Position numbers and translations under genes: made by a program. This document shows, in pieces, positions 67 to 45,943 of a DNA stretch of 55,795 bases. The notes beneath the pieces were generated by a model that searched no databases, had not been told where the DNA came from, and worked only from the letters and a program-made list of their open reading frames with translations. The stretch is taken from IMG/VR virus record IMGVR_UViG_3300007640_000041, positions 1 to 55,795 of that record. The stretch is one strand, 5' to 3'. Origin of the DNA: a virus. Position 1 is the stretch's first letter; each line of letters opens with the position of its first letter.

Positions 67-180
67 TTAGCCGTTGACGAAGAAGTCGATGGCGTCCCAA
101 ATCACGTAGGCCGCACAAGGCACGACCGCCATCGCACACAGGAAGACGGGGACTGATTCGAAGTAGTCGTAGAAGTTCAT
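67..180 (-). CDS. 37-residue single-span membrane microprotein
   Basis: A short frame of 37 codons starting MNFYDYFESVPVFLCAMAVV and ending FFVNG. A hydrophobic stretch of about 20 residues (roughly residues 10-28, VFLCAMAVVPCAAYVIW) predicts one membrane span; the ends carry mostly acidic residues. Its ATG lies in a TTCATC-N3-GATGAA hairpin shared with the neighbouring leftward gene, which supports the start and suggests joint control. The gene follows the 192-734 gene by 11 bases in the same direction and is followed by a strong stem-loop. Family and function are not recognised. Confidence 0.55.
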   Translation of the reverse strand: MNFYDYFESVPVFLCAMAVVPCAAYVIWDAIDFFVNG

Positions 181-190
181 CTTCGATGAA
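176..190 (-). promoter_or_regulatory. start-codon hairpin of the 37-residue gene
   Basis: TTCATC and GATGAA form a 6-bp perfect stem with a 3-base loop, and the ATG of the gene is inside one arm. The same arrangement is present at 730-744, with a shared longer context (AAATTCATC-N3-GATGAAC read on the minus strand). In mRNA it would cover the start codon, so a translational operator is plausible; a DNA operator is also possible. Confidence 0.45.
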
Positions 191-858: not shown

Positions 859-1254
859 TTACTTACCCTTGGTAAGTAAAGGTTGAGCCAAACCTCGGAA
901 CTCACAGGAAGCCAACAAGTTGGCTACGTGGTGTTCGGTGTGTGTACGCCGCTCCGCCAAGGCCGAGCAACAGCCGAAAACAATAGCAGTTTTAATTGTC
1001 AATACGTAGTATTGGATAGCTAACAGAAAGCTTGAAGCATCCCTTGAAGCGGCAAGGCTAAAGCCTTGAAAGAGAGCCTCGTGTGTCTCCCCGCCTGCGG
1101 CGGCGCATCCAATCCTCCGTACGTTGGGGTTGTGATTGCCTCGTCGGTTTGAGGTTCTGACCCTGCGATATGGCGCGGTCAGCAGCGGTTCCAGCGGGGA
1201 AACTTGAAAAGTTTCAGCAAAAAAGCCAAAAAAAGCTGAAAATCTTCGATTTTC
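859..1254. ncRNA. candidate structured RNA: run of perfect hairpins
   Basis: Perfect stems occur in close succession: 859-879 (TTACTTACC/GGTAAGTAA, 3-base loop), 880-895, 910-925 (AGCCAAC/GTTGGCT), 1000-1014 (CAATAC/GTATTG), 1053-1068 (CAAGGCT/AGCCTTG), 1091-1103 (CCGCC/GGCGG), 1139-1154 (CCTC/GAGG), 1158-1181 (TGACC/GGTCA), 1200-1214 (AAACTT/AAGTTT), an alternative 1212-1241 stem (TTTCAGC/GCTGAAA) and 1238-1254 (GAAAATC/GATTTTC). The loops are mostly 2-8 bases and the stems do not lie in a credible gene. Large ornate phage RNAs such as GOLLD and ROOL are precedents for such loci; no specific match is claimed. Strand is undecided because no TAnnTTTG promoter was seen. A replication origin is the main alternative. 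Confidence 0.35.
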
Positions 1255-1396
1255 TTCGGTTTCGTTTCGGTTTTCATCACGTACGTGTATATATGAATCC
1301 CCGATCTCCATATTACTCCCAAAAATTTTCACCAAATCCATTTTTTCTACCTCGTAAATCACTCATTTACAACAAATTGCTAGGCTTGCATTAAAG

Positions 1397-5770: not shown

Positions 5771-6032
5771 TGCGGCACAGCGCCTTATGAATAGCATGGA
5801 GGCCGCCATAAACAATATGATCGAGGAAGTGCGTAAGCCTGTTGATCCAGAGATCAACGGAAGTGCGCGCAAGGCTGAGCTTCAGTCTATAAAGCAGACA
5901 GCCACTGACTGCAAAGAACTTATCGTTGAGAGACAGCGATTAGAGCAAATGATAAAAGACCTAACTGACAATGGGGAAATCGAACAAGCCAAAGACTACA
6001 GCGGAGGTTTCGCTGAAAGATTCTCTAAATGA
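5742..6032 (+). CDS. small helical protein, possible small-terminase-like
   Basis: A 96-residue, all-helical, charged protein: MSRKKFTTIDAAQRLMNSME and later ERQRLEQMIKDL. It overlaps the 3' end of the previous gene by 29 bases. Position before the tRNAs and large terminase would fit a small terminase subunit, but there is no recognisable HTH, so the function is unassigned. The next small gene starts inside it. Confidence 0.6.
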   Translation: MSRKKFTTIDAAQRLMNSMEAAINNMIEEVRKPVDPEINGSARKAELQSIKQTATDCKELIVERQRLEQMIKDLTDNGEIEQAKDYSGGFAERFSK

Positions 6033-6114
6033 TTGGAAAGAAATAGTTTATCAAATGAATAAATTGGATTATACCTTCTGGGAGGACTCTTGGAACGAAG
6101 AGTTCGAAGACTAA
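5971..6114 (+). CDS. overlapping 47-residue Trp/Glu-rich protein
   Basis: ATG 5971 lies within the last 62 bases of the 5742 gene in another frame. It reads MGKSNKPKTTAEVSLKDSLN and ends TFWEDSWNEEFED. The three tryptophans and acidic tail look protein-like and the frame fills the gap before the tRNA. No function is known. It is too short for automatic length cut-offs. Confidence 0.45.
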   Translation: MGKSNKPKTTAEVSLKDSLNDWKEIVYQMNKLDYTFWEDSWNEEFED

Positions 6115-6162
6115 ACTTCTTATTTCGTCAGGCGGCCCTCTACGCAAATAGGGCAATCACAC

Positions 6163-6236
6163 TGGGGCGTAGTTCAGTTGGTTAGAGCGTCTGTCTTATA
6201 CACAGGAAGTCGTGGGTTCAAGTCCCACCGCCCCGA
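6163..6236 (+). tRNA. tRNA-Ile(UAU)
   Basis: A full cloverleaf of 74 bases: acceptor TGGGGCG/CGCCCCG (U-G at the first pair), D-stem GTTC/GAGC, anticodon stem TCTGT/ACAGG with loop CTTATAC, 5-base variable loop and T-stem GTGGG/CCCAC with TTCAAGT. Anticodon positions 34-36 are TAT, reading AUA. The 3' CCA is not encoded. AUA is common in the phage late genes, and bacteria usually read it with a lysidine-modified CAU tRNA, so this tRNA probably supports late translation. Confidence 0.88.
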
Positions 6237-6250
6237 CAAATTAAATCAAA

Positions 6251-6382
6251 ATGGCAAAGCAAGTAGTTACAACATACACCAAGAAGCGAGTTCGTCGCAA
6301 GGGTGTACACGCCAAGACGAAGTATTCTAAGACCAAGTCTTCAAAGCTCTACAAAAAAGCTTACAGGGCCCAGGGGAGGTAA
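6251..6382 (+). CDS. 43-residue very basic protein between the two tRNAs
   Basis: MAKQVVTTYTKKRVRRKGVH followed by AKTKYSKTKS and ending AQGR; about 40 percent Lys/Arg. The pattern K-R-V-R-R-K-G-V-H-A-K-T-K recurs in small basic proteins of tailed phages, often beside head and packaging genes. It probably binds nucleic acid or sits in the virion; function is unproven. It is only 14 bases after one tRNA and 6 bases before the next. Confidence 0.7.
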   Translation: MAKQVVTTYTKKRVRRKGVHAKTKYSKTKSSKLYKKAYRAQGR

Positions 6383-6388
6383 TCCTAT

Positions 6389-6462
6389 GCGCCCGTAGCT
6401 CAGCTGGATAGAGCATTTGCCTTCTAAGCAAACGGTCACAGGTTCGAATCCTGTCGGGCGTA
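6389..6462 (+). tRNA. tRNA-Arg(UCU)
   Basis: A 74-base cloverleaf: acceptor GCGCCCG/CGGGCGT, D-stem GCTC/GAGC, anticodon stem TTTGC/GCAAA with loop CTTCTAA, T-stem ACAGG/CCTGT with TTCGAAT. Anticodon TCT reads AGA, the dominant Arg codon in the late genes here. No CCA is encoded. Confidence 0.9.
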
Positions 6463-6475
6463 CAAATTTAAAAAA

Positions 6476-6655
6476 ATGGCTAAGTATAAGTGCGAATGCG
6501 GAGGCGAGAAAGACGCCTCTGGCGTAAAGATCAAGTTTGTTGACGGGAAGGCTCGTCACGAGATTACGTGCGAATGTGGCAAATACATGGAGCTGGCAAA
6601 CCCTAAAACTGGAGCCCCTAGCTTCAAAAGCAATCGGTATGGTCAGGTATTCTAA
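6476..6655 (+). CDS. 59-residue zinc-ribbon-like protein
   Basis: MAKYKCECGGEKDASGVKIK contains CxCGG and, after about 25 residues, CECGK, giving four cysteines in two CxC(G) knuckles, as in small zinc ribbons. It probably binds one zinc ion. The stop TAA shares one base with the ATG of the large terminase (TAATG), so translation is coupled to packaging. A role in packaging or DNA binding is inferred from position only. Confidence 0.7.
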   Translation: MAKYKCECGGEKDASGVKIKFVDGKARHEITCECGKYMELANPKTGAPSFKSNRYGQVF

Positions 6656-8772
6656 TGAACTCTCTAGTAAAAATAGAAGGGTATGAGGAGCTTGGCATCT
6701 CGATTTGCCCCAAGGGTACACAAGGTGAAGTTCTTGAACTCGGTGGGCTACTCATTGTACTTCCCGCTCAGCCTCCCGAAGAGGAAATTGAAGGATATGG
6801 ACGTCCAAACAACCTGCAGTTGTGGGAGAGAAGGTCTATGCCTGAGGAGCTGTCTAGGGTTCGTTCTATGGATGAGTGGGGGGAGATGCCAAGGGAGTTT
6901 CGACAGAAGTTTTCTCCGTATATCGAAGAGGAGTTTCGCCGTAGGCGTGAGGGCTTTTGGTTTTATAACAACGGTGTCCCTACATATATTACGGGCAGGC
7001 ACTACATGATGCTTCAATGGACGAAGCTTGATATAGGTTATCCAAATTTCTTATCTTTCCAGCGAGAGATATTTATTCACCTGGCTGCATGTGAGGCTGA
7101 TCCCCGTTGTATAGGGCAGCTTTACACCAAATGCCGAAGATCAGGTTACACCAACATCTGTTCGTCTGTAATTGTAGACGAAGCCACCCAAGTCAAAGAG
7201 AAGCTGCTTGGGATACAGTCCAAGACTGGTAAAGATGCGCAGGAGAACATCTTCATGAAGAAGGTGGTCCAGATGTTTAAGTCGTACCCGTTCTTTTTTA
7301 AACCCATTCAAGATGGTACCACTAACCCACGCATGGAGCTGGCTTTTCGCGAGCCGAGTAAGAGAATCACGAAGAAGAATAAGACTTCGCAGAAGGGCGA
7401 GGCTCTTAATACGATAATAAACTGGAAGAACACCACCAACAACGCATATGATGGTGAGAAGCTACATTTGTTGTATTTAGATGAAGCTGGAAAATGGGAA
7501 AAACCTACAGACATAAGGGACGCATGGAGGATTCAGCGGACCTGTTTGATCGTCGGAAGAAGAATCGTGGGAAAAGCGATGGTCGGAAGCACCGTAAATC
7601 CGATGGACAAGGGAGGAAAGGAGTACAAGGAGCTATGGGAGGATTCGAGTCCTATGAACAGGAACGCGAATGGTAGGACAACCAGCGGACTTTACAGACT
7701 CTTTATCCCAGCATACGAGTCACTTGAAGGATTCTTTGACGTATACGGCAATCCAGTCGTGGAAGATCCTGACAATCCTTTGGATGGCCTTGATGGTGAT
7801 AGCGTATATATTGGAGCTAAGACGTATCTCAAAAACGAGAGAGACGGATTAAAGCACGACCCAGCGGAGCTTAACGAAGTTACAAGGCAGTTCCCCTTTA
7901 CTACAGACGAAGCCTTCAGGGATAGTATCGACGGCAGCATCTTTAATGTGGGTAAAATCTACCAGCAGATAGAGTTTAACGAGGATCTATTCCCAAATCC
8001 TATCGTGCAAGGAAACTTTATGTGGAGGGGTGGAGAAAAGGATACGGAGGTAATCTTTGCTCCTGATGTAAACGGTCGATTTTTAGTTGCGTGGATGCCG
8101 CCAGAAGATCAGCGTAACGTGAAGCGGTCGGACAAGGGTAAACGTGTTGCACCATTTCCAGAAAGAGGTGTCGGCGGCGTTGACTCTTATGACCTTGACG
8201 AAACAGTAGACGGGAGAGGATCTAAGGGTGCGCTACATCTTTACAATAAGTTCAGCATGGAGGGTGCGTCAAACATGTTTGTCGTAGAGTATGCGTCGAG
8301 ACCAGATATGGCCAGAATATTCTATGAAGACTGTCTGATGGCTGCTGTGTTTTATGGGTATCCGCTGTTAATTGAAAACAATAAGTACGGTATCGCAAGA
8401 TACTTTGAATCAAGAGGTTACGACGGATACTTAATGGAAAGGCCGAAGCACCTGTTTGCCTCTAGCTCTAAGACTGTGAAGACTAAGGGTCTCCCGTCAA
8501 ACTCAGCAGATATTATCCAAGCCCACGCTCACGCGATTGAATCTTACATACACAATCACGTCGGCATAAATCAGGATAACGGTACAATGGGTAACATGTA
8601 CTTTAACAGAACCCTTGAGGACTGGATAGGATTTAAAATTAATAATAGAACTAAGTTTGACCTTACGATTAGCTCAGGGTTAGCTCTGCTTGCCGCTCAG
8701 AAGGCTCCTCCGCAAAAAGTAACCGACTTATCTAATAAGCAGTTTTTTAGGAGATTTAAGTTCAACGCGTAA
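6655..8772 (+). CDS. terL: terminase large subunit (TerL)
   Basis: A 705-residue packaging motor and nuclease. The N-terminal ATPase has a Walker A-like loop near residues 156-168 (TKCRRSGYTN, an atypical R-S-G-x-T form) and a Walker B at about 272-278 (LLYLDEA) with the catalytic Glu. The C-terminal RNase H-like nuclease starts about residue 505 (GGVDSYD) with the first acidic residue, and further acids are near LLIEN (about 569) and in the DIIQAHAHAIE region. It cuts concatemeric DNA and pumps it into the prohead through the portal encoded just downstream. A TATATTTG promoter follows its stop. Confidence 0.9.
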   Translation: MNSLVKIEGYEELGISICPKGTQGEVLELGGLLIVLPAQPPEEEIEGYGRPNNLQLWERRSMPEELSRVRSMDEWGEMPREFRQKFSPYIEEEFRRRREGFWFYNNGVPTYITGRHYMMLQWTKLDIGYPNFLSFQREIFIHLAACEADPRCIGQLYTKCRRSGYTNICSSVIVDEATQVKEKLLGIQSKTGKDAQENIFMKKVVQMFKSYPFFFKPIQDGTTNPRMELAFREPSKRITKKNKTSQKGEALNTIINWKNTTNNAYDGEKLHLLYLDEAGKWEKPTDIRDAWRIQRTCLIVGRRIVGKAMVGSTVNPMDKGGKEYKELWEDSSPMNRNANGRTTSGLYRLFIPAYESLEGFFDVYGNPVVEDPDNPLDGLDGDSVYIGAKTYLKNERDGLKHDPAELNEVTRQFPFTTDEAFRDSIDGSIFNVGKIYQQIEFNEDLFPNPIVQGNFMWRGGEKDTEVIFAPDVNGRFLVAWMPPEDQRNVKRSDKGKRVAPFPERGVGGVDSYDLDETVDGRGSKGALHLYNKFSMEGASNMFVVEYASRPDMARIFYEDCLMAAVFYGYPLLIENNKYGIARYFESRGYDGYLMERPKHLFASSSKTVKTKGLPSNSADIIQAHAHAIESYIHNHVGINQDNGTMGNMYFNRTLEDWIGFKINNRTKFDLTISSGLALLAAQKAPPQKVTDLSNKQFFRRFKFNA

Positions 8773-8777
8773 ATCAC

Positions 8778-8785
8778 TATATTTG
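8778..8785 (+). promoter_or_regulatory. late promoter TATATTTG before portal gene
   Basis: TATATTTGCAGG, 19 bases before ATG 8805. It starts the portal-to-fibre transcription unit. Confidence 0.6.
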
Positions 8786-8804
8786 CAGGAAAAGCAAATG
8801 GGTG

Positions 8805-11267
8805 ATGCACGGAAGTAATTCAAATAATAAGTTCGGATTTCCAGATCAGCTCGCTACTATGGCAGAGAAAGAGACCAAGGAGTACGGTCTCAAGTATGCC
8901 AAGGCGATTGATGCTCAATGGGGTAAGGTTTCCGAACGAGGCAGCCTGTTCAGAAAGCGTTTTGAGCAATTCGAAAAGAACAGGGCTTATGCCAACGGTA
9001 CACAAGATACCAGCATATACAAAAAGATTCTTACGTCTCTTGACCCTAATTCAAACGACGGTACCCTCCTTAACCTTGACTTCTCTCCAGTCCCAGTACT
9101 CCCTAAGTTTGCGAGAGTTGTAGCCAACAAAATTCTTTCCCTCAATCCATATCCAAATCTTGAGGCAATAGATCCAATTTCATCTACCGAAAAGGATAAG
9201 ATGAGACAGGAGATCTTGTTTGACATGGAGAATAAAGAGGATCTTAAGAAGATTGAAGAAGACACTGGGGAGCAGATGACTTCTGTGCCAGTTGATCAGC
9301 TCCCAGAAACTTCTGAGGAGGCGGAGATCTTTATGGCTTCAAACCTTAAGACTGCTGCTGAGATATCGGCTCAGATGGCTACAAACCTCACTCTTGAGTG
9401 GAATAACTTTAACGACTCTACGTATAGAAGGGTTGTTGACGATCTGGTTATATGCGGAATTGGGGTTGTTAAAAGAGAAAACGACCCGTCTCACGGCATC
9501 ATAACTAGATACGTAGACCCTGCGGCCTTTATTCACAGCTACACTGAAGATCCAGGTTTAAATGACCTTGTGTATGCTGGAGAATCCAGGAAGATCACTA
9601 TTCAAGAGTTGCGAAAGCTTGCTGGGGACGAGCTTACAGAAGACGAAATCAAAGACATTGCTGAAAAGGCTAGAAGTAAGTATTCTTACGATAGCAAGCA
9701 TATGCATCAGCACAACTACGATATTTACTCTGGAAAGAATTCGTATGGCTATGACGACTTCGTTGTTGACATCTTGGACTTTGAGTTTATTTCATCTGAC
9801 AAGATTTATTTCGAAGAAAAGGAGAATAAATACGGGAATGTAAACTTTTTCATGAAGGGCTTTGATAAGGAGCCCAAGATTAAGAACAGCGTATTTGAAA
9901 GAAAGCCTCACTGCCTTGAGGTTGGTAGCGTGTATGGCGGAATCTACATAGTTGGGTGCAATAAGGTCATCAACTATGGAAGAAAGGCAAACGTGCCTAA
10001 AAATATGTACGACATTTCAAGAGCAACACTCTCTTATTCGTGCGTAGCCACGAACATGAGAAACATGATGCCTAAGTCAATGATCGACAGCACCATAAGC
10101 TTTGCCGATCAGATTCAGCTTACTCATCTTAAGATTCAGCAAGCTATCGCCAAGGCTAAGCCTGATGGGTTGATTATTGATATCGAGGCCCTTGAAAATG
10201 TTCAGCTCGGAAAGGGTGGTGAGCTTCAGCCCTTGGAGCTTCACGACATCTACGAGCAGACTGGCGTCTTCTACTACAGAAGCAAGAATGCAGACGGCTC
10301 TGCTGGAGCTCCTCCGATCAGAGAGATCGGAAATAGCATCCGAAACATCAATGAGATGATAGCTCTTTACAACCATTACATGCGTATGATTCGCGATGTG
10401 ACTGGTGTTAACGAGCAGATGGACGGGACGACGCCTAAGGGTGACGCTCTTGTCGGCGTTCAGCAGATTGCAATACAGACTGGAAATAACGCTATTTACG
10501 ACATCACCAATGCGTCTGCAATCCTCTACAAAAAGGTTTGTCAGGACATCGTAAAGTGCCTTCAGATCATACACCCAGAAAGCATTTTGTTTGCTGTCTA
10601 CGAAAAAGCTCTTGGAAGGTTTAACATGCAGACTTTATCTGAGTTTAGAGAGCTTCCGATGTATAATTTTGGCGTAATCGTAGAGAAGGATATGGAGGAG
10701 AAGGACAGACAGTTCCTTGAGCAAAACATTCAAATTTCATTGTCTCAAAAAGAGATAGACCTTGAGGATGCTATGGCTGTAAGGCAGCTTAGAGACGTCA
10801 ATCAGGCCGAAAAGGTTCTGATGATACGTCGTAAGAAGAAACAAGAAGCCGCTCAGAAAGCAGCTATGCAGCAGCAGCAAGCCGCTGCTCAGGCTCAGAT
10901 GCAGCAAATTCAAGCGCAGATGCAGGCTAAGCAGCAAGAATATCAGATGATGATGCAGGCCAAAGTATCTGAGATCGGAGTTAAGATGAAAGCTGAAATG
11001 CAGCTTGAACAAATGCGGTTCCAACATGAGCGAGAGCTCGCTATGATTAAGGCTCAGGTTGGCCAGTTTGACAAGCAATCTGACGTCGAGACGCGCAAAG
11101 AAATTGAGCGCATGAAAGACGACAGAAAAGATGAAAGAGTTAAGAAACAAGCTGTCGAGCAAAGCAAGCTTATATCTCAAAGACAAGGTCAGAGAGGAGA
11201 GCTTAAAAACGAAGCAGAAGAATTTGATCTGGGCCAAGCCCTCGCAAACCAAGCAATGAATAGATAA
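8805..11267 (+). CDS. portal protein
   Basis: About 820 residues. A GTG at 8802 directly precedes ATG 8805 in frame; the ATG is chosen. The middle (about residues 420-600) has portal-like sequence, including IRNINEMIALYNHY, IRDVTGVNEQMDGT and KGDALVGVQQIAIQ, the T-G-v-n-E-x-x-x-G-T region known in podovirus and crAss-like portals. The C-terminal 130 residues (about 676-753) are a glutamine-rich coiled coil (QQQQAAAQAQMQQIQAQMQA), typical of the portal barrel or a long C-terminal tail. The dodecameric ring occupies one capsid vertex, binds TerL and nucleates the head. The stop overlaps the next ATG by one base. Confidence 0.85.
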   Translation: MHGSNSNNKFGFPDQLATMAEKETKEYGLKYAKAIDAQWGKVSERGSLFRKRFEQFEKNRAYANGTQDTSIYKKILTSLDPNSNDGTLLNLDFSPVPVLPKFARVVANKILSLNPYPNLEAIDPISSTEKDKMRQEILFDMENKEDLKKIEEDTGEQMTSVPVDQLPETSEEAEIFMASNLKTAAEISAQMATNLTLEWNNFNDSTYRRVVDDLVICGIGVVKRENDPSHGIITRYVDPAAFIHSYTEDPGLNDLVYAGESRKITIQELRKLAGDELTEDEIKDIAEKARSKYSYDSKHMHQHNYDIYSGKNSYGYDDFVVDILDFEFISSDKIYFEEKENKYGNVNFFMKGFDKEPKIKNSVFERKPHCLEVGSVYGGIYIVGCNKVINYGRKANVPKNMYDISRATLSYSCVATNMRNMMPKSMIDSTISFADQIQLTHLKIQQAIAKAKPDGLIIDIEALENVQLGKGGELQPLELHDIYEQTGVFYYRSKNADGSAGAPPIREIGNSIRNINEMIALYNHYMRMIRDVTGVNEQMDGTTPKGDALVGVQQIAIQTGNNAIYDITNASAILYKKVCQDIVKCLQIIHPESILFAVYEKALGRFNMQTLSEFRELPMYNFGVIVEKDMEEKDRQFLEQNIQISLSQKEIDLEDAMAVRQLRDVNQAEKVLMIRRKKKQEAAQKAAMQQQQAAAQAQMQQIQAQMQAKQQEYQMMMQAKVSEIGVKMKAEMQLEQMRFQHERELAMIKAQVGQFDKQSDVETRKEIERMKDDRKDERVKKQAVEQSKLISQRQGQRGELKNEAEEFDLGQALANQAMNR

Positions 11268-33945: not shown

Positions 33946-36900
33946 ATGAACGATCAGTACATTCAGCTAATTGAGGATTACCTCGCAAAAGGTGTAGCTC
34001 ATCCAGATATTATTGAAAATCTTGGAAACGACGTAAGCGATGATGCTGCGAAGTTTGCTGCTGATTATCTAAAAAAAAAAGATCAGCCAGAGCAGGGTGG
34101 AGGCTCGGAATCAACCTTGGACCCCTCTTTATCGGAATCTGCTGGCGCTGATCAGATGCTTGACCCGTTCGGCAGACCTATTACGGTTGGCCTAAAGGGT
34201 GTAGACATTGTAGCGGAAAAAGAGCTCTCTCAGGAGATGGTCGGCAAATACGGTCTTGAGGCCGCAGCCAACGACTATACAACTAGAGCAGATAGATTTA
34301 ATGGGCTTGAGTCTCTTGAGCAGCAGTTGGCGTTTTTCAAAGACGAGAAGAACGTTAGGTATTTCCCCGAAGTCTACAAAGAGGTGGAAAAGCAGGGCCG
34401 AACGCTCGCCCTAAACAAAGACTTGGATGATGCGGAAACTCTTGCCGATGTGGAGCAGGCGTTTGAGGATGCTGGATTTAGCTCGGAAGAATACGCAGAT
34501 TGGCTGGAAAAAACAAAAGCTGAAAATCCGTTTGTTATAAAATCGCTTCAAGCAGAAGAAGAGTACAGAGCTCGCTTTGGAGCCCCAGCTAAGGGAGAAT
34601 ACGACTTGTCAGAAATCTACAATCAGCTTTCTGAAAAAAGAAACAAACTTATAGCTGAAAAAGAAAAGGTTGTTCAGCTTTGGCAGCAAAAATTTAAAGA
34701 AGGGTATTTCGGTACCGACCTTAGGTTTTTGACGGCCCAAATAGAGACCCTCAAAGAATCTGCTTCAGAGGCGCTTGGTCAAATGGACTACGCTCTCGAA
34801 GAGATGAAGCGCGAACGGGATGAGGATGGTAAAAAACTAAAGGACAGCCTTCCAGAAGATTCCTACAGCATATACGAAACGTACAATAACGCATACTCTG
34901 TTGCAATATCTAAAGAGGTAGAGCAGCTTATTAAAAACGCAAAAGGAGATCAGTACGACCCAGCAGAAACCCAATATGTCCTTTCTCAAATGATGAGAGG
35001 GGATATGACCCTAAATCAAGCAATACAGGAATACTACCCAGACCTTGTTTATGGTGAATCTGGCGTCGAATTTACTGCTCAGCAGATAAGAAACAGAGTT
35101 CAGGAAGAAGCCTCCAACGCGGCTCGCGAGCAATTCAGCTCTATCGGAAAGCCTGAAGACGCCACGAGAATAGAAAGAGACCTTAAGGGGATTTTGTCAG
35201 TAGACTTCAACGATGACGGTTATGTGGCCCCCATGGACATTTTTGACTCGTATCTGGCTAAAATACCTCTTAACTCACGAGGTTTTACTGTTGGCGGGCT
35301 TCTTAGAAACTTTAGCCCAGGCACTGTTAATGCAGTGAGGGCCGTGTACGAACCAATAGAAAAGGCTGTTACTGCGACCGCAATGATGGTTGGGGACGCG
35401 GGCGGCGGAGCTTGGCAATTCGTAGAGCAACTCGGAAACAACCTCCTTATTGACATGGATGGCGCTGATGAGTTTACGGACTACATGGCGGAGTGGAAGC
35501 GCGAATTTGAAGAGAAGGGGACATACTTTGTCCCAAAGCCAGGTGGTCGCCTTGGATTTGAGTCCACGGTAAATCAAGCCGCCTATAGCTTGCCATTCTC
35601 TATTATTCAGTTCGCCCTAAAGAGAAACCCATACGTTGCTAGTGCAATGCTTATGACTGGATTGTCCCATGACTTGCACGCCAGAAATAAGGATAATGAT
35701 TGGTACAAGGCCATGTCTGAGACCGAAAGACTTGTTTGGCTTGCGGGGCACACTGGGTCAGAATTTGGATTTGAGTACCTCGGAAACAGGCTTCTTTTTA
35801 AGAGCGGATCTAATCTTGTTGGGCCCTCAACTGGAAGGTCTTTTCTTGGAGAGTCTTTGTACAAGGGAGGGCAGTTCGCTAAAGGCACGGCTGGAGAGAT
35901 AGGCACCGAACTTTTGACCTTGTTTTCGGGCAACGCGCTAGACAACATGATGCTGACCGACTACGGTGTAGCAGCAAAGCCGATATTTGACGCCACTGAA
36001 ATCATGAACACGATTCAGGTCGCTGGAGTGACATCAGGCGTAATTCAGGGTCCAGTGGCTGGAATGGCATACGCTCAGAACCTGAGAGATGTAAAAGACC
36101 TTAGACTTGGTATCGACGAAGAAATCTCTAAGCTCAGAGATCCAAACCTCACGGAAGAGCAGTCCCTTGATATAATTAAGGGGATTATGGCAAAGCAATC
36201 AAAGCTTGCTGCCAAGTTCACAGATATGACGGAGTACGGGCAGTGGATGAAGGAAAACTTCTCTGATCAGTACGACGCTATGATGGCGCACTCTGGTCAG
36301 ATTGAAGCTATACTAAAGGAGCTTAAGGATCCAAACACCACGCAGGCCAGAGTAAGCGTACTTAAGAGCAAGCTTGCCACAGCCATGAACAATGAATATC
36401 AGGCTAGCTTTGTTGGCTTAAACAAATACCTCGGAGAGCAGGCTAAGACCATGCCAGAGGACCGACTCAAAGCGAGAATTCAGTCTAAATCTGGGGAACT
36501 CGACGAGCTTAAGGCTGAAAAGGCTGAGCTTGAACAAAGAAAAAGAGATGGGGAAGATGTCAGTAATGCTATCGCCCTTGTGGACGATAAAATCACTCAC
36601 GTCTCTGGTGCTTTAACGCAAATGCAAGAAGCCAAGTCAGCTCTTGAGGCGGCCCAAGAGGAAGGTGCGACAAAAGAAGAGGTTGCGGCTGGATTTAAGG
36701 CTGCTAACTACGTCACTAAATCCGAAGCTCAAGAGCAGATGTTGCGTCTTGCGAAGTTTGCTGGCAAGGAAATTTCTAGCGAAACACTTCAAGCAACAGA
36801 ATCGTTGAACGTTACAGAAGACTCGGTCTACATGCTGGACAAAGACGGCAATGTGATCGACATGTTCGTGCACGCAGACAAAAAGTCTGAACTTGGAGTC

Positions 36901-39900
36901 CCTGTTGTGGCCAAGGCAAAGGACGCGTCTGAGCAGATGTGGGCAATGGTTCAGCACGGGTATGTTGTTGTAGGGAAAAATGAAGAAACTGGGGAAGTCG
37001 CCCTTGTGTACGACAAGAGCGGAGACCTTCTAAAGGCGTTCCCAGGAATAAAAGACAGCACGAAGGGGATTGACCATCAGCTTATTGTCGCCAAAAACGC
37101 GAGCGTAATACTCTCTAAGGCTACTGGAAATGCCCATAAACATATTAAAATAGACTCTCTTGCTGGAATGGTGGCAGAAGAGGTTGATATAAATGGTCTG
37201 AGCGAAGAAATGCAGCTTTTCTACAGACTTAACAAAAGCGCTATTGACACGAAAGCAGCTTTGATTGCCGCAAACAAAGCGGAGCGTAAGGAATCCGACT
37301 TGGCCAAGGCTGGGAATGCGGATGCTAAGGGAAAGGCGAAAGACAGAAAGGCTAATAAGATCGTTGAGCTTGCAAGAAGCAAGTTCGGCCTTAACGTAAT
37401 GGTCGGGAATGACGCTCAGCTCTTTAACGCGAGTAAAAGAACCGACTACATGTCTGGCGCAATAATAGGTGGATTTTACGTTAGAGGTACAAACAACATA
37501 TACATTAACGAAAACGCTAGCGCAAAAGACGTAATCGAAGAAATATTTCACGCAAAGATTGCAAACGAGATTTTTTCCGACAAGAGGAGAAGAGCCAGAT
37601 TTCAAAACGAGCTCTCCAGCATACTTATGCGAGATCCGTTTATGAGAGCGCTACTTGACGTAAAAAGAAGCGAATACGAGGGCTTATATAGAGGAAGAAA
37701 GGATGCGGAACAAATGATCGAAGAAGAGCTTCTTGCGGAGGCTATCTCTGTTTACGTGGCAAACAGCGACAAGGTTGATGCTGGCACGGTGTCAGGTATG
37801 ATAAACTACCTTAAGTCATTCCTTGGAGACACTGAGATTGATGTGACGAAAGACAACCTTGAAGTCATTATGTCGAAGCTTGAAACCACACTGTCTTCTG
37901 GAAGGTCTCTCAGGATAAAAAGGAACGAAGATCAAGAGCGCGAGGAGAACTCAGAAGGGACTGAAATGATGTCCGCATATAGCGGCAAGAACTCGTTCCT
38001 TCACAAGGTTCCTGTTTCAATTAAAGTGGTTCAGCACTCTGATTGGGGGGAGTCCAGAGTAAGAAACGAACAGACAAAGCAGTTTGAGGACTATAATCAT
38101 TTTAGAGCTTGGTACAATAAGATGAGCGGTAACGGCTCTCTTAGCGGGTCTATTGAGGTAAAAATGTCTTACACTGACGCGGACGGAAACGTTAAGACGC
38201 TGAACCCTCCAAAGCCATACCCAGGAAGAGAGGCTACAAGACCTGTAAATGCATGGGCTAGCAGATACCAAAGAGAACTTAACGAGCAGGAAAAGGTAAA
38301 CAAGATTATTGACGACAGAGTATCTGTCCTACAGGATCAGCTGGATATACTAATGTCATCTGGCATGGATCGTACAGCCGCACTCGACCTGCTTGGGTGG
38401 GATGGTAGAAACAGAAACTGGGGAGCAAGACCGACCCAAGCTATGGTAGATAAGGCTGTAGAGGCGACGTCTAACTATATGCTTGACATAGAAGGCGGTT
38501 CTCCCGAATCTGTCGTCATGTACTCGACATATAACGACATTGTCGATAGAATGAATGAGGTGCTTGCGAGTAACGACAAGGAGACGTTTGACATAGGGAA
38601 GTATAGATCAGACGATCCTAAATATCGAGAAAGCGTAAACAAGGCTCTCATGGATCTTACTGATGATCCAAAGACTGTGAAGGAATTCCAAGAGTCTATA
38701 TTGGGATCGTCTGCTCCTATCTCAAACGCAGAAATACAGAACTTCCTTACTGCGGTGTCGGATAAACTTCATGGAGGCAAGCGAAGAGATGGTATGAGTG
38801 CAATACACCAAGATAGAGTTGTAGACGTACTTGAAGTTCCATTCAGAAGACTAATGGAGACAGAGCGTGGCGCTGATTTTGTAAACTTCTTCTCGGACTT
38901 CAGAGAAGGTTTGCCTAATCATTTTCAGTTTTTGGCTGACGAACACGGGCTAGATAGAGATGATTTGCTAAGCGCAAAAGACCTGTATTTGGGCATAGTC
39001 GCTGTTCTGTCAAACGGAAACGAGGCCAACATAAACATTCAGCTTGCTGACTACGTGTTTGCCTCATACATGTCTGGTGATAAAGCTTCATTCGAGCTGG
39101 CGATGCACCAGATACTTAACGTTGGGTCCTATAAGGGCATATCTGGTAGGCCAGAAATTCAGAGAACAAAGGCGCATCAAGACGGAATAAGAAGTCTTGT
39201 CGATATGTTTGAATCTGACGTAGATCTAGTGTCGCACTTTACCTCTAAGGGCTCTAAAAATCGGAAAAAACCACGTGGAAGATCTGTAGAAAAACAGAAA
39301 GAGGTTGTGGCGATGGATATGTTTGGAAACAAGATAGGGGCGTTTATGGCAAACCTTCTCGGGGACGAAAGCGTGCTTGCTCAAGACTCTCACTTCGTGG
39401 CTGAAATGAATCGCGCGAGAGGCATAAAGAGCACTTACGATATAAATGCACTAAAGGATGCGTTTGCCTCGTGTTATAATCTGAAAGAAGAGGTCGAGAA
39501 GTTCTACGGAATAAAACTTAGAAAGTCTTACATGAGGGATGACATGGAGGCGCTTGGTAGAGAAGTATTTAAAAGGGGCACGAAATTCACTAGAGCTGGA
39601 AAGGACAGGTTTAAGGGGTTTAAAGGGTGGGAAAAAGAAGTCTTTAAGTGGTACACAAAAGACGTCAAGAACCGACTCAGGAGGACGCCAAAAAACATGG
39701 ACGAGCGCCACCTGAACTATACGATCGCAAAGAAGCTTGGAGACAGGCTGGGAATAAGTGTAGCTGCCGTACAACAACTTATGTTCTATGACAATCACTT
39801 GACTCAGCAGCTATTTGGCAGAGGTGTTGCTGCGGAGGATGTTACTTTTGCTGACGTTCTTGACATGCAGCTGCCTTCGTCCTTTGAGATGGCTATACCA

Positions 39901-42900
39901 AACGAGGCGGCACTAGAGGAGGTGAAGGCTAGGGATGCATATTTTAGGGACCAGGTTGTTGAAAAGGATTTGTCTGGTAGCGCACCAGTTGCAAGAGACT
40001 CTTTCTCCATGCAAGAACTTATTGACGCAGATGAGCTTGAAGTTGTTCAGATAAGCGACAGAGCAAAGGATCCTACGATAGGAGTAGAGGATGTCGTTAC
40101 GCTTAAGCGAGCACGAGGCGGTGGTCGTTTTGCGTCTATTGGGTCTGGAATAGAACGCGCCAATGCTGTGGTTTTGTCTGATGTCGCCTTTCCTCAATCA
40201 AAAGAGATGTCGGCAGTGGGCACTATTGATAGCTTTGCAAACGGAAAGGATGTAGGGTCGATCGACATTACAAATGGCATTGAGCTCGAATTTCACAACG
40301 GAGGCTGGTATTCAGGCGGAAATAGAGTTATCGGAGCAGAAAAGGCGGTTATGACTGGCGATACTGTTTTTGCAATGGGTGAGATTACTTACTCAGACCC
40401 TGAACTTTTTGCATACCAACAAGCAGAGTTTACCGAAGAAGAGGCTGAAAGATTTGCAGACGATCCATTTACTGCAGATTCAATTATAGACTTAATGGAG
40501 ACGGAGGGTCTGTCTTTTGATCAGGCCGAAGCACTATTCTATGACAGAGTAGACATGTCCATGTCTGACGACGAAGTCATGTTCTCGTCTCAAATCAGAG
40601 GTACAGCAGCAAGAGTTGTAGATTCTGCTAACTTCTCTGGAGACCTGAGAGAGATGGTTAAAAATAATCCAGAGAACTACTTTGATCGAGCGTCTTTCAC
40701 GGACATTAAAGACGCAATGGATCATATGACCACTCCGCAGCTTCTTTCTTACATGAGAGCAGATAAGCTTGGGGAGCTTAAGGGCGATGAAAACTACGGG
40801 CCTCTTGCTACCATAACTCTTATAAACAGATACGCTGCAGCTGGAGATAATGAGTCTGCTGCAGCCCTCGTAGCTGACCTTGCGGCTACTGGAACTAGCG
40901 TCGGTAGATTGCTTCGTCAATTTGCGGAACTTAAGACGTCTACTCCAGAGTCCATGGCCAGTACCATTTTGCACATGGCAGAAAGAGGTGGCAAGACTGT
41001 TAACGATAGGACTAAAAAACAAGTTGAGGAGCAGTCTAGAATTGTATTCGAACTACACAGAAGAGCAGAAGAACTGTACGCTAGAGGGCAAAAGGGAGAG
41101 GACGTTTGGGATGAATACAAGAAAGCTATCGATCTTCTCGCCAAGGAAGAAAAGCAGCTGGACATCATTGCAAACAAGATCATTGAAAGATCTTGGGGGG
41201 AGCTTATAAGAACGACTATTCAGGGTAACCTGTTGACTCCGATGTCGCAGGCAACGAACGTTATTGCGAACCTTTCGAACTTTATTCCAAAGACGATGGT
41301 AGACGTTACCGCTTTCCCGATGGAGAAACTGCTCGAAAAGACGTTCCCAGACTGGTACAGAAAGAGCAAGGGCATAGACAGAAAGATGACGTTCTCATCC
41401 TACCTGTACGGTATGATGCGATTTGGGGGCGGCACAATGGAGGCGCTTGGAGAAATAGCTAGGGGTCAAAGAAATAGCGACCTTACAGAGTGGAGAATCA
41501 GCAGAAGCTTGATGCCAATCCACTCCCTCATGGCATTTTGGGGCTCTGACCTTCCAGAGGCCAAGTCAAAAGTTGCTGATGTAAACCAGCGGGCAAAGCT
41601 TCTATTTCAGGGCACCTTCGGCATGCCAGCTGAATCTATGTTTAGATTACTTGGACTTGGTGATACCCCGTTCAGAAGATACGCAGAGGGCCTTGAGCTT
41701 TCCCAGATAGCAGACGCCAGAGGGCTGACTGGAAAAGAAAGAACTCAGTTCTTGAGATTCCCTCCGTCAGACGTGGTGGAGCAGGCTCGCAAGCGCGGGC
41801 TGGAGTTTACCTTCCAGAACGACACTAGCATGTCGCAAGTTGCCGAGTACACAATCGGAGCTTTGTCTAGGGGGTTTGGCAAACCGTTCAAGAACGTTAG
41901 GGGTTTCGACGGAGAAGACTTCTTCAATACGATCATCCGAATGAATGTCCCATACGTTAGGACTCCAGCAAACCTGCTTGAGGAGACTCTTACGTACGCG
42001 TCTCCAGCTATTGCCATGGCTAGATTCGGAAAGCACCTTCTGGACGGTGACGCTAGAGGAGCATCAGAAAACCTAGCGAAGGGCATGATCGGTCAGTCGG
42101 TGACTATGGCTAGCATGTACCTGATTGCAAATGGCCTAATATCTGGGCCTCCAGATGACGATAAGGCGGTTCGCAACCTGCAGTACGACACGTTCCCACC
42201 TAACTGCATAAACGTGTCTGGCTTGAAGCGCCTCTTGGCTGGAGAGGATCCTGCTTATCAGGCTGGTGACGAGTTCAGAAACTACCAGAAGCTTGGAATT
42301 CTAGGTAGCGTTATGGGTGCTGCTGCTGTGGCGACAACGAAGCAAGGGGCAGAAGAGGTTATCAAGAACCCATTCGGACCAACAGAGCTATTTAAGAGAA
42401 CGTTTGGCTTTGACAATGTTGCCACACTTAGCTACATGATGGACCAGAGCTTCTTGCAGGGTCTTAACAGCACGCTTGATGTTCTGTCAATTTCTAATCC
42501 AGATGAGGCAGAAAAAGCTTGGAGCCAGTGGCTTGAGGGCATGTTTAAGTCTATCTCTGCTGTGCCGCTTCCAAACACCCTTAGCGCGCTCAACAGAACT
42601 CAAAGAACCTACATGCCAGATATGAGAAGCGCTTCTATGGCAGAAAGGCTCGGCAACACGGTGAGAGACAGAACGTTCTCTACAGGTTCGCTTCCTATAA
42701 GATACAACTGGAAGGGGGAACCGATTAAGCAAACTCCAGATGGCTCTGGGCCAGCAGCCTACCAGCTTTTTGATGTCACAAAAGCGAGAGAAGGATCTGC
42801 AGATCCAGTTTCAATGGAGGCGCTTAGAATCTATCAGGAGACTGGAGAGGCTATTGAAGTACTCAACACTCCGTACTTTGCTTCTAGCGTGTTTAGACAT

Positions 42901-43257
42901 ATCGGAACACCTTCATTTAGCAGGGGAAAGGCCAAGAAAGCATACGAGTCTGGTAAGAAGTACCAGTTTGTCGAGGATGGGGTTGACTTCAAAATGAAGC
43001 TCAATGCAGAGCAGGTGAATGAAGCCCTTAGACTGGCTGGATCTCTCAGATATCAGGAGTGCCTTGCGCTTGTTGAGTCAGATAAATACAAGCAAATGAC
43101 TGATGAAGAAAGAATGACCGAGTTCGAATCGATTAATTCTAAGTATAACGGACTTGTGGAGTTTGACCCTCAGGGCAATTTCCTCCCACACACGCAATAC
43201 TTGATGGATTTGTTCGAAAAAGAATACATAGAAAGAAAACAGAATGGAGAGCTCTAA
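33946..43257 (+). CDS. giant polyvalent internal virion protein (3103 aa)
   Basis: One uninterrupted frame of 9312 bases, a sixth of the genome. The N-terminus (about 1-200) is helical and acidic. Residues about 770-960 predict long coiled coils. Near residue 1196 VIEEIFHAKIANEIF and later EEELLAEAISVYVA resemble the metal-binding helices of polyvalent-protein zincins, although there is no HExxH. The C-terminal third carries segments typical of large polyvalent proteins (LLTPMSQATNVIANLSNF; MNVPYVRTPANLLEETL), as in LPD38-like domains. It is probably packed inside the head and ejected with DNA to degrade peptidoglycan, protect DNA or reprogram the host. No RNA polymerase active site (DxDGD) is seen, unlike large crAss-like virion RNAPs. 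It overlaps the holin gene by 14 bases. Confidence 0.7.
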   Translation: MNDQYIQLIEDYLAKGVAHPDIIENLGNDVSDDAAKFAADYLKKKDQPEQGGGSESTLDPSLSESAGADQMLDPFGRPITVGLKGVDIVAEKELSQEMVGKYGLEAAANDYTTRADRFNGLESLEQQLAFFKDEKNVRYFPEVYKEVEKQGRTLALNKDLDDAETLADVEQAFEDAGFSSEEYADWLEKTKAENPFVIKSLQAEEEYRARFGAPAKGEYDLSEIYNQLSEKRNKLIAEKEKVVQLWQQKFKEGYFGTDLRFLTAQIETLKESASEALGQMDYALEEMKRERDEDGKKLKDSLPEDSYSIYETYNNAYSVAISKEVEQLIKNAKGDQYDPAETQYVLSQMMRGDMTLNQAIQEYYPDLVYGESGVEFTAQQIRNRVQEEASNAAREQFSSIGKPEDATRIERDLKGILSVDFNDDGYVAPMDIFDSYLAKIPLNSRGFTVGGLLRNFSPGTVNAVRAVYEPIEKAVTATAMMVGDAGGGAWQFVEQLGNNLLIDMDGADEFTDYMAEWKREFEEKGTYFVPKPGGRLGFESTVNQAAYSLPFSIIQFALKRNPYVASAMLMTGLSHDLHARNKDNDWYKAMSETERLVWLAGHTGSEFGFEYLGNRLLFKSGSNLVGPSTGRSFLGESLYKGGQFAKGTAGEIGTELLTLFSGNALDNMMLTDYGVAAKPIFDATEIMNTIQVAGVTSGVIQGPVAGMAYAQNLRDVKDLRLGIDEEISKLRDPNLTEEQSLDIIKGIMAKQSKLAAKFTDMTEYGQWMKENFSDQYDAMMAHSGQIEAILKELKDPNTTQARVSVLKSKLATAMNNEYQASFVGLNKYLGEQAKTMPEDRLKARIQSKSGELDELKAEKAELEQRKRDGEDVSNAIALVDDKITHVSGALTQMQEAKSALEAAQEEGATKEEVAAGFKAANYVTKSEAQEQMLRLAKFAGKEISSETLQATESLNVTEDSVYMLDKDGNVIDMFVHADKKSELGVPVVAKAKDASEQMWAMVQHGYVVVGKNEETGEVALVYDKSGDLLKAFPGIKDSTKGIDHQLIVAKNASVILSKATGNAHKHIKIDSLAGMVAEEVDINGLSEEMQLFYRLNKSAIDTKAALIAANKAERKESDLAKAGNADAKGKAKDRKANKIVELARSKFGLNVMVGNDAQLFNASKRTDYMSGAIIGGFYVRGTNNIYINENASAKDVIEEIFHAKIANEIFSDKRRRARFQNELSSILMRDPFMRALLDVKRSEYEGLYRGRKDAEQMIEEELLAEAISVYVANSDKVDAGTVSGMINYLKSFLGDTEIDVTKDNLEVIMSKLETTLSSGRSLRIKRNEDQEREENSEGTEMMSAYSGKNSFLHKVPVSIKVVQHSDWGESRVRNEQTKQFEDYNHFRAWYNKMSGNGSLSGSIEVKMSYTDADGNVKTLNPPKPYPGREATRPVNAWASRYQRELNEQEKVNKIIDDRVSVLQDQLDILMSSGMDRTAALDLLGWDGRNRNWGARPTQAMVDKAVEATSNYMLDIEGGSPESVVMYSTYNDIVDRMNEVLASNDKETFDIGKYRSDDPKYRESVNKALMDLTDDPKTVKEFQESILGSSAPISNAEIQNFLTAVSDKLHGGKRRDGMSAIHQDRVVDVLEVPFRRLMETERGADFVNFFSDFREGLPNHFQFLADEHGLDRDDLLSAKDLYLGIVAVLSNGNEANINIQLADYVFASYMSGDKASFELAMHQILNVGSYKGISGRPEIQRTKAHQDGIRSLVDMFESDVDLVSHFTSKGSKNRKKPRGRSVEKQKEVVAMDMFGNKIGAFMANLLGDESVLAQDSHFVAEMNRARGIKSTYDINALKDAFASCYNLKEEVEKFYGIKLRKSYMRDDMEALGREVFKRGTKFTRAGKDRFKGFKGWEKEVFKWYTKDVKNRLRRTPKNMDERHLNYTIAKKLGDRLGISVAAVQQLMFYDNHLTQQLFGRGVAAEDVTFADVLDMQLPSSFEMAIPNEAALEEVKARDAYFRDQVVEKDLSGSAPVARDSFSMQELIDADELEVVQISDRAKDPTIGVEDVVTLKRARGGGRFASIGSGIERANAVVLSDVAFPQSKEMSAVGTIDSFANGKDVGSIDITNGIELEFHNGGWYSGGNRVIGAEKAVMTGDTVFAMGEITYSDPELFAYQQAEFTEEEAERFADDPFTADSIIDLMETEGLSFDQAEALFYDRVDMSMSDDEVMFSSQIRGTAARVVDSANFSGDLREMVKNNPENYFDRASFTDIKDAMDHMTTPQLLSYMRADKLGELKGDENYGPLATITLINRYAAAGDNESAAALVADLAATGTSVGRLLRQFAELKTSTPESMASTILHMAERGGKTVNDRTKKQVEEQSRIVFELHRRAEELYARGQKGEDVWDEYKKAIDLLAKEEKQLDIIANKIIERSWGELIRTTIQGNLLTPMSQATNVIANLSNFIPKTMVDVTAFPMEKLLEKTFPDWYRKSKGIDRKMTFSSYLYGMMRFGGGTMEALGEIARGQRNSDLTEWRISRSLMPIHSLMAFWGSDLPEAKSKVADVNQRAKLLFQGTFGMPAESMFRLLGLGDTPFRRYAEGLELSQIADARGLTGKERTQFLRFPPSDVVEQARKRGLEFTFQNDTSMSQVAEYTIGALSRGFGKPFKNVRGFDGEDFFNTIIRMNVPYVRTPANLLEETLTYASPAIAMARFGKHLLDGDARGASENLAKGMIGQSVTMASMYLIANGLISGPPDDDKAVRNLQYDTFPPNCINVSGLKRLLAGEDPAYQAGDEFRNYQKLGILGSVMGAAAVATTKQGAEEVIKNPFGPTELFKRTFGFDNVATLSYMMDQSFLQGLNSTLDVLSISNPDEAEKAWSQWLEGMFKSISAVPLPNTLSALNRTQRTYMPDMRSASMAERLGNTVRDRTFSTGSLPIRYNWKGEPIKQTPDGSGPAAYQLFDVTKAREGSADPVSMEALRIYQETGEAIEVLNTPYFASSVFRHIGTPSFSRGKAKKAYESGKKYQFVEDGVDFKMKLNAEQVNEALRLAGSLRYQECLALVESDKYKQMTDEERMTEFESINSKYNGLVEFDPQGNFLPHTQYLMDLFEKEYIERKQNGEL

Positions 43258-43891: not shown

Positions 43892-43914
43892 AAAGGGGCC
43901 GAAGCCCCTTTCTT
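43892..43914. terminator. bidirectional terminator between convergent blocks
   Basis: AAAGGGGC/GCCCCTTT with CGAA loop; T-rich on both strands (TTTCTT on plus, TTTTTT on minus beyond). It separates the late genes from the leftward metalloprotease gene, whose stop is at 43913. Confidence 0.85.
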
Positions 43915-45868: not shown

Positions 45869-45872
45869 ACCG

Positions 45873-45880
45873 CAAAGGTA
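45873..45880 (-). promoter_or_regulatory. promoter TACCTTTG 4 bases before the protease ATG
   Basis: On the minus strand TACCTTTG-CGGT-ATG; it fits TAnnTTTG and leaves only four bases before the start, implying a leaderless mRNA. It is separated from the ribonucleotide reductase gene by a terminator. Confidence 0.6.
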
Positions 45881-45883
45881 TGT

Positions 45884-45920
45884 ATAAAAAAAAGAGGGGA
45901 GATTATGTCTAACCTCCCCT
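45884..45920 (-). terminator. minus-strand terminator after the reductase gene
   Basis: AGGGGAG/CTCCCCT (45914-45920 with 45895-45901) with a 12-base loop, followed on the minus strand by TCTTTTTTTT. It isolates the protease unit from upstream transcription. Confidence 0.85.
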
Positions 45921-45943
45921 CCAGTAGCGAAGTTCCACAGCAA

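Follow-up and report, generated by a model that had tools for sequence, protein, structure and literature searches.

What is the role of a dense run of perfect, small-looped hairpins at the point from which the two gene blocks of a phage genome diverge, and is it as RNA or as DNA that they fold? The question is raised by the virus record IMGVR_UViG_3300007640_000041, the whole of which (55,795 bases) was analysed and is referred to here as the window. Its leftward replication block occupies 43.9–55.8 kb together with positions 1–776, its rightward structural block lies at 1.7–43.7 kb, and the hairpins sit in the divergent region between the two. The terminase belongs to PHROG family 6681 and the portal to PHROG family 6547. 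Among isolates and named records, the terminase comes closest to those of the uncultured podovirus MW202828, at 49% identity, and of elemo-group Flavobacterium phages, at 42%; these phage relatives suggest hosts of a marine Bacteroidota type. The DNA of positions 1–2600 had no match among phage records, and a search for relatives via the protein at 1746–2456 returned none. Elsewhere, the window contains a 3,103-residue open frame at 33946–43257 with no PHROG match, a protein at 43913–45943, the end of the leftward block, with an M43-type metallopeptidase domain and weak EF-hand matches, and two tRNA genes, Ile(tat) and Arg(tct), at 6163–6463 just upstream of the terminase.

Extent of the hairpin excess

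A sequence-only reading of this DNA had described the hairpins as a run within the gene-free bases 859–1254, and as a candidate structured RNA or origin. Within that interval there are 11 hairpins with stems of at least 5 bp, 6 with at least 6 bp and 5 with at least 7 bp, where 300 dinucleotide shuffles gave means of 2.4 (maximum 10), 0.66 (maximum 6) and 0.21 (maximum 4), respectively; the slightly longer interval 859–1362 holds 12 with stems of at least 5 bp. The excess therefore stands, but its restriction to gene-free DNA does not, as the neighbouring gene region 192–736 is denser still (14 hairpins versus 0.98, stem at least 6). Positions 1–1290 together contain 23 hairpins (stem at least 6, loop 2–8) against a shuffled mean of 2.06 (maximum 7, 300 shuffles), and all 11 of the densest among 560 segments of 396 nt each fall within 1–1390. 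The feature is thus positions 1–1290, a leader plus the first leftward gene, and reaches beyond the gene-free DNA.

The hairpins named in that reading are all present, those at 859–879, 910–925, 1000–1014, 1053–1068, 1091–1103, 1199–1215 and 1238–1254 among them, and its G+C-richer core is likewise found, with 0.55–0.62 in parts of the core and 0.34–0.40 around it. Read on the minus strand, the hairpins at 1000–1014, 1053–1068 and 1199–1215 are short and perfect, as is the G+C-rich one at 1091–1103, and that at 1238–1254 would be the first of the putative transcript. In L008/L152 and L010/L111, the position of this last one is roughly matched by a hairpin with a different sequence. The CTTGAA repeats, which had been taken to leave an origin role open, lie at 1031, 1043, 1065 and 1203 as described, but with 25 occurrences in the record they lend no support to an origin. 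Terminator-like sites number 6 in positions 1–2600, where 2.3 are expected; five are on the plus strand, and they leave out the majority of the array's hairpins.

Could the array be due to chance, to a protein gene at 859–1362 or to an artefact of composition? The sole point in favour is a minus-strand open frame of 167 residues at 859–1362. Among the first relatives, tblastn matched it in L008 alone and over just 30 residues, and the leaders of the window and five relatives have stops in every frame over 470 nt, so that the frame is not conserved and the earlier judgement that no convincing coding frame lies here is upheld. Together with the shuffles, and with the codon permutation and covariation presented below, this refutes such explanations, to which we give next to no credence.

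At the left end of the record, positions 9–51 form a long palindromic hairpin, to which no strand is assigned. Similar palindromes, with TATATA arms and a conserved inner loop, recur in the leftward operons of the relatives L084, L083, L082 and L085; in L084, four copies lie about 1–1.4 kb apart at 5893–9565, with compensatory differences. A processing site, a promoter and a mobile repeat are all candidates for this recurring element.

A one-sided domain at a conserved motif

The right border of the hairpins is marked by a motif at 1287–1329 (minus strand), conserved among relatives, which occurs once in the window and reads leftward as A-tract...AGaAATgtatA..gtGGGGATTATATatat. Relatives were gathered via terminase and first-gene matches and then via this motif, with two motif pattern scans giving further contigs; by strict criteria, at least 57 contigs carry it. 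Among the matches listed, the 1.3 kb left of the motif holds at least 8 hairpins per kb in 29 of 57 strict-motif contigs, 4–8 per kb in 8 and fewer than 4 per kb in 20, while on the right only 1 of 95 motif contexts reaches 8 per kb, and that within 394 nt of sequence. In successive 250-nt bins leftward from the motif, the density is 12.9, 13.7, 25.6, 20.5, 11.0, 7.4 and 5.8 hairpins per kb and then near background, against 0.4–3.2 throughout on the right, in 32 contigs that were picked for a left density of at least 8 per kb (the unconditioned figure being the 29 of 57 above). Among the matches listed, then, the dense domain begins at the motif, runs leftward only and fades after about 1.3–2 kb. 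Five phage records, scanned in part, contained no such domain and at most 4–8 hairpins per 1-kb window; these records, and the motif relatives without dense hairpins, indicate that the domain is dispensable in the wider group.

The motif is a putative leftward promoter, from which a transcript would start at the right end of the leader. We read it leftward because long leftward leaders adjoin it and because host-type promoters nearby face right: among the matches listed, TTG-N-TAnnTTTG, which we take to be the host-type promoter consensus, faces right in 28 of 57 motif contigs and left in 11 of 57. The position of the genes, the one-sidedness of the domain and the wobble pairs of the leader element discussed below point in the same direction. 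The rightward promoter lies 120–180 nt right of the motif, a fairly constant spacing, in 22 of the 57 contigs among the matches listed, and the border motif itself is unlike it. A contig end falls within 5 kb of the motif, on either side, in 12 of the 22 contigs of at least 47 kb among the matches listed, including position 1 of the window and ends in L133, L140, L236, L111, L107, L126 and others; either hairpins may be breaking assemblies or genome termini may lie in this region.

A start at the motif and a one-sided domain argue for the reading that we prefer, namely RNA-level selection for dense local structure in the leftward transcript, to which we assign a probability of roughly 0.55. 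An unlikely alternative, though one to be weighed throughout, is that the hairpins form in single-stranded DNA, for example where an R-loop beyond the promoter displaces one strand, or at an origin of replication lying between the divergent gene blocks, and that they are sites for priming, protein loading or fork control. The cumulative GC skew has its minimum near the left end and its maximum near 43–44 kb, as such an origin might predict, but skew here tracks gene direction and so does not locate an origin. Also against folding at the DNA level, the domain ends at the motif rather than straddling it, and there are relatives that have the motif yet no hairpins.

A covarying RNA element in the leader

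The hairpin-dense leader, or 5′ UTR, of the putative leftward transcript spans 735–1286 on the minus strand; in the 32 dense contigs, the first 500 nt left of the motif have 12.9–13.7 hairpins per kb, and those right of it 1.3–3.2. Within it, positions 855–963 form a structured element of about 110 nt (minus strand, as are all features of the leader), which consists of two stacked helices and a hairpin; 12 contigs conserve both its sequence and its fold. Helix 2 is the hairpin at 910–925, where relatives show paired C-G/U-A changes, and the third helix is the hairpin at 859–879, with 9 bp and a 3-nt loop. In an alignment of the 12 sequences that was not fitted to the fold, 96.5% of cells pair, double changes occur at 10 of the 24 pairs, and both sides differ in 21 cells versus 5.6 in shuffled alignments; slid versions pair at 28–54%. 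The contigs share descent, and such cells, here and in the alignments below, are not independent events. A covariance model of the element, run against 80 sources, scored E ≤ 0.01 in 16, its members beyond the training set being L235 (its relative), L163 and L118 (53 bits, the same score) and L145 (27 bits). Extending the alignment by L163 and L145 to 14 sequences, this time fitted to the covariance model, gives double changes in 15 of 24 pairs, 96.7% of cells paired and 41 double-change cells versus 10.0 shuffled, with slid controls at 26–56%. Compensatory changes thus back a single fold ahead of a gene. When read on the transcript strand, the element has 21 G·U cells (12 of them at one invariant pair) versus 2 A·C, which supports an RNA read leftward and tells against folding as DNA.

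Two further covarying hairpins stand between this element and the start codon. The longer, at 787–842, has about 25 bp and many compensatory changes, and might be an RNase III site; the loop of the other, at 757–786, is complementary to one arm of the first. Competing stems had been proposed from the sequence, by comparison with switching RNAs, and such stems do exist here and in the aligned relatives, though they belong to these two hairpins and are other than the ones at 1200–1254 that had been named. Stems are more conserved than unpaired bases both in the leader (0.789 versus 0.718) and in the gene (0.865 versus 0.793).

The proposal of a structured RNA has accordingly fared well: it had been staked on covariation and on the absence of a real protein at 859–1362, and the leader does covary. 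The further suggestion of a large ornate RNA has not. GOLLD and ROOL are long structured RNAs in phage genomes, whereas the present array has no Rfam match and continues through a translated gene. Rfam covariance models recovered only the two tRNAs from the whole record at gathering thresholds, and nothing near the gathering score from positions 1–1800.

Might a discrete leader RNA, such as a switch, an antiterminator or a processed small RNA, be the functional unit and the hairpins of the gene a side effect? Such an RNA would be well served by the conserved element, the long hairpin and its competing arm, and its position in a phage operon leader would resemble that of put in phage HK022, a structured RNA of an early phage leader (PMC9378689). 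The put RNA is short and acts on polymerase, whereas the hairpins described here continue through genes. They are more closely packed inside the gene (25.6 per kb) than in the leader (12.9–13.7), and are kept there by synonymous compensation. The element reaches E ≤ 0.01 in 16 of 80 sources, two of which (L118 and L163) have the same score, and the hairpin domain is found in combination with different leaders and first genes too (L120, L147, L139 and L167). We therefore consider a discrete leader RNA very unlikely as the whole explanation.

Hairpins within the first leftward genes

The first leftward gene, at 192–734 on the minus strand, has relatives and encodes a basic protein of 180 residues (MNNFNFND...), and its sequence is written as a string of hairpins. 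It contains 13 hairpins, against a mean of 1.2 (maximum 3 in 100) when synonymous codons are permuted. Across 23 first genes from 21 contigs, 256 hairpins compare with a mean of 30.5 (maximum 46 in 100) under the same permutation, and 22 of the 23 lie above all their 100 permutations, the exception being L163 (1 versus 0.5). A codon alignment of 13 genes places 182 hairpins at 43 places, 28 of which are common to at least three genes, and shows double changes from one Watson–Crick pair to another at 34 of 113 column pairs (80 cells). The peptides KAFHGKA and PTQRVA are each encoded by differing yet perfect hairpins, the differences being wholly synonymous, and at LEEV the residues on either side vary in step with the closing pairs. 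The array is also found in first genes of other sequence, in L120 and L147 and in L139, L198 and L167, and is therefore not an accident of one protein. Among DNA viruses, it is unusual for a protein gene to have its codons, and even some of its amino acids, constrained by dozens of perfect hairpins.

The start codon of the first gene (ATG, 734–732) is held in a hairpin at 730–744 on the minus strand. In 20 of 28 contigs the first start codon lies within a hairpin of at least 5 bp, where hairpin coverage is 0.36, and among several contigs these hairpins differ in sequence. A hairpin at 176–190 (minus strand) holds the start codon of the second leftward gene and has counterparts at the matching place in relatives; that gene, at 67–180 (minus strand), encodes 37 residues and is 97% identical in L008 and 89% in L028. 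A start codon under a hairpin should hinder an early gene, and this counts against the RNA reading.

The products of the first leftward genes tend to be small and basic, with linkers rich in K/R; they fall into several families that look unrelated, and are also present in phages without the hairpins. An AlphaFold2 model of the 180-residue protein has a mean pLDDT of 68.5 and is confident only in two N-terminal helices and one C-terminal helix. For this protein there was no fold match at E ≤ 0.001 in a viral structure library, no PHROG or Pfam family, and no relative among phage isolates or in a bacterial genome scan. Separately, E. coli genomes were searched without any hit, and this added little.

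Hairpin design and perfection

Most hairpins have 5–8 bp, nearly all of them Watson–Crick, and mainly loops of 3–4 bases; those of at least 5 bp cover 0.35–0.36 of the domain. In 28 contigs, loops of 3 nt number 322 (4.2 expected), loops of 2 nt, which are effectively 4, number 118, and loops of 4 nt number 75, followed by 31 of 5 nt (5.6 expected) and 12 of 6 nt (5.6), with 7–8 nt at background. A second, weaker rise at 9–14 nt probably belongs to larger stems. Palindromes with no loop are not in excess in these contigs (8 versus 10.4 expected). For both these counts and those of stems of at least 7 bp below, L236 and L209 were left out as short, and L198 and L157 as nearly identical to L139 and L126. 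So tight a range of loop sizes indicates that single-strand folding is being kept, rather than protein sites on duplex DNA.

With stems of at least 7 bp, 311 hairpins are perfect where block shuffles give 4–10, and those with one defect number 10 with G·U, 14 with A·C and 41 with other mismatches, against 1–3, 3–5 and 14–25. In 13 related pairs, read both ways so that each pair is counted twice, 306 hairpins have no defect (58 of these with compensation) and 38 have one defect, 28 at the stem end and 10 internally, none of the internal ones being G·U; 34 have 2–3 defects, 81 have at least 4, and 60 could not be scored for gaps. The codon alignment tells a similar story, with 111 perfect, 11 single-defect and 82 more defective cases among 204 hairpin-by-sequence instances. 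Hairpins thus tend to be perfect or gone, and no route through G·U is visible. Where they change, compensation is for the most part complete. Controls for G·U tolerance at 7 or more pairs, which rest on few hairpins, gave 7 perfect, 5 G·U and 5 A·C in MS2, and 2, 1 and 0 in an E. coli rRNA operon.

This pattern of perfect-or-gone is what speaks most strongly against reading the hairpins plainly as RNA, and favours very strict selection, single-stranded DNA or arm-to-arm copying. Selection on RNA should tolerate G·U, for which the short hairpins show no preference, and the turnover of single hairpins (at least two defects in 82 of the 204 instances) likewise weighs against it. Triloops, which are not known to exceed tetraloops in common RNA structures, outnumber them here. 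The two strands also fold equally well: in 10 contigs, leader and gene reach mean folding z values of −6.7 and −7.5 when read as transcript, and of −6.3 and −6.5 when the opposite strand is folded. As a strand test, minimum free energy is uninformative, and its raw form favours the opposite strand (lower in 21 of 21).

Strict Watson–Crick pairing, equal folding of both strands and a preference for triloops are all what folding as single-stranded DNA would lead one to expect. The C(GAA)G loop is very stable in DNA, and in the genes C(GAA)G outnumbers C(TTC)G by 72 to 7. In the leader this asymmetry is reversed (C(TTC)G 16, C(GAA)G 3), so that it follows local composition, and GAA loops were accordingly rejected as a strand marker.

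Arm-to-arm copying, by template switching or quasi-palindrome correction in a heavily transcribed region, may be a way of keeping hairpins perfect; as an explanation of the whole array, it would both make and perfect them, with little or no function. The all-or-none pattern fits this well, as does the ratio of 58 fully compensated hairpins to 10 with internal single defects, and quasi-palindrome mutations are described in highly transcribed yeast DNA (PMC3820800). However, template switching would not be expected to restrict loops to 3–4 nt or to produce no excess of zero-loop palindromes. It must also contend with stems that are conserved above their spacers, with the presence of a single domain in the window and with relatives that have the same motif but lack the domain. 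We consider it improbable that such copying explains the array.

Comparison with known systems

The genome-scale ordered RNA structure (GORS) of RNA viruses is dense local structure that runs through coding sequence and is distributed among many stems instead of forming a single fold. It is the closest to the present array in its working, as this too has dense local structure through coding sequence. In RNA viruses GORS has been linked to persistence and host defence (PMC3950689 and PMC3695492). As with GORS, folding of the phage sequence exceeds that of sequence-preserving shuffles (mean z about −6.5 to −7.5 for leader and gene in 10 contigs, and the codon permutation). Unlike GORS, it is found in a dsDNA phage, extends for about 1.3 kb and consists of strictly perfect 5–8-bp hairpins with 3–4-nt loops; genome-wide spread was not seen, the densest segments all lying within 1–1390, and being confined to one domain it is not a member of this class.

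The promoters of the N4 virion RNA polymerase are hairpins of single-stranded DNA, with 5–7-bp stems and 3-nt loops. Here, by contrast, dozens of hairpins are spread over a gene, and no N4-type virion RNA polymerase was recognised among the window proteins scanned with PHROG. In the type I toxin mRNA aapA3 of Helicobacter pylori, short local hairpins in the 5′ UTR and within the coding frame block premature cotranscriptional translation (PMC6733600). A few hairpins act there on the Shine–Dalgarno site, whereas the phage has at least 20 over 1.3 kb and encloses the start codon itself. No description of such a hairpin array was found in the titles and abstract starts of the open-licence PubMed Central literature, and there is a minority chance that the domain is something new altogether.

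A proposed RNA-folding domain and its possible uses

Under RNA-level selection, the first 1.3 kb or so of the leftward transcript, comprising a leader of about 540 nt and the first gene or genes, would constitute an RNA-folding domain. Its hairpins would fold in succession while the RNA emerges from the polymerase, so that few long stretches would stay single-stranded and the first start codons would be enclosed. The likeliest use would be to make the opening of the message a poor substrate for users of single-stranded RNA, such as endonucleases, RNA-guided defence and Rho, and to hold back initiation at the first gene until ribosomes or a protein open the hairpins; the small basic proteins of the first genes could be what binds the domain. 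Any single one of these uses, whether evasion of nucleases, of defence or of Rho, or delayed initiation, is doubtful when taken by itself.

The same tentative standing applies to the idea that dozens of perfect hairpins with minimal loops, made out of synonymous codons and covarying residues, deny long single-stranded RNA to RNA-targeting host defences and nucleases during takeover. Perfect stems would matter in this case because completely paired, exceptionally stable hairpins, a rare kind, are reported to impair Cas13d (PMC11364014). If shielding of this kind does occur, it would amount to a sequence-independent counter-defence; if it is instead as DNA that the hairpins fold, they would represent a new origin architecture. 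The leader element is a candidate new RNA family for which there is a working covariance model, and the domain as a whole offers a clear and testable example in which nucleic-acid structure overrides coding sequence, probably within an early message.
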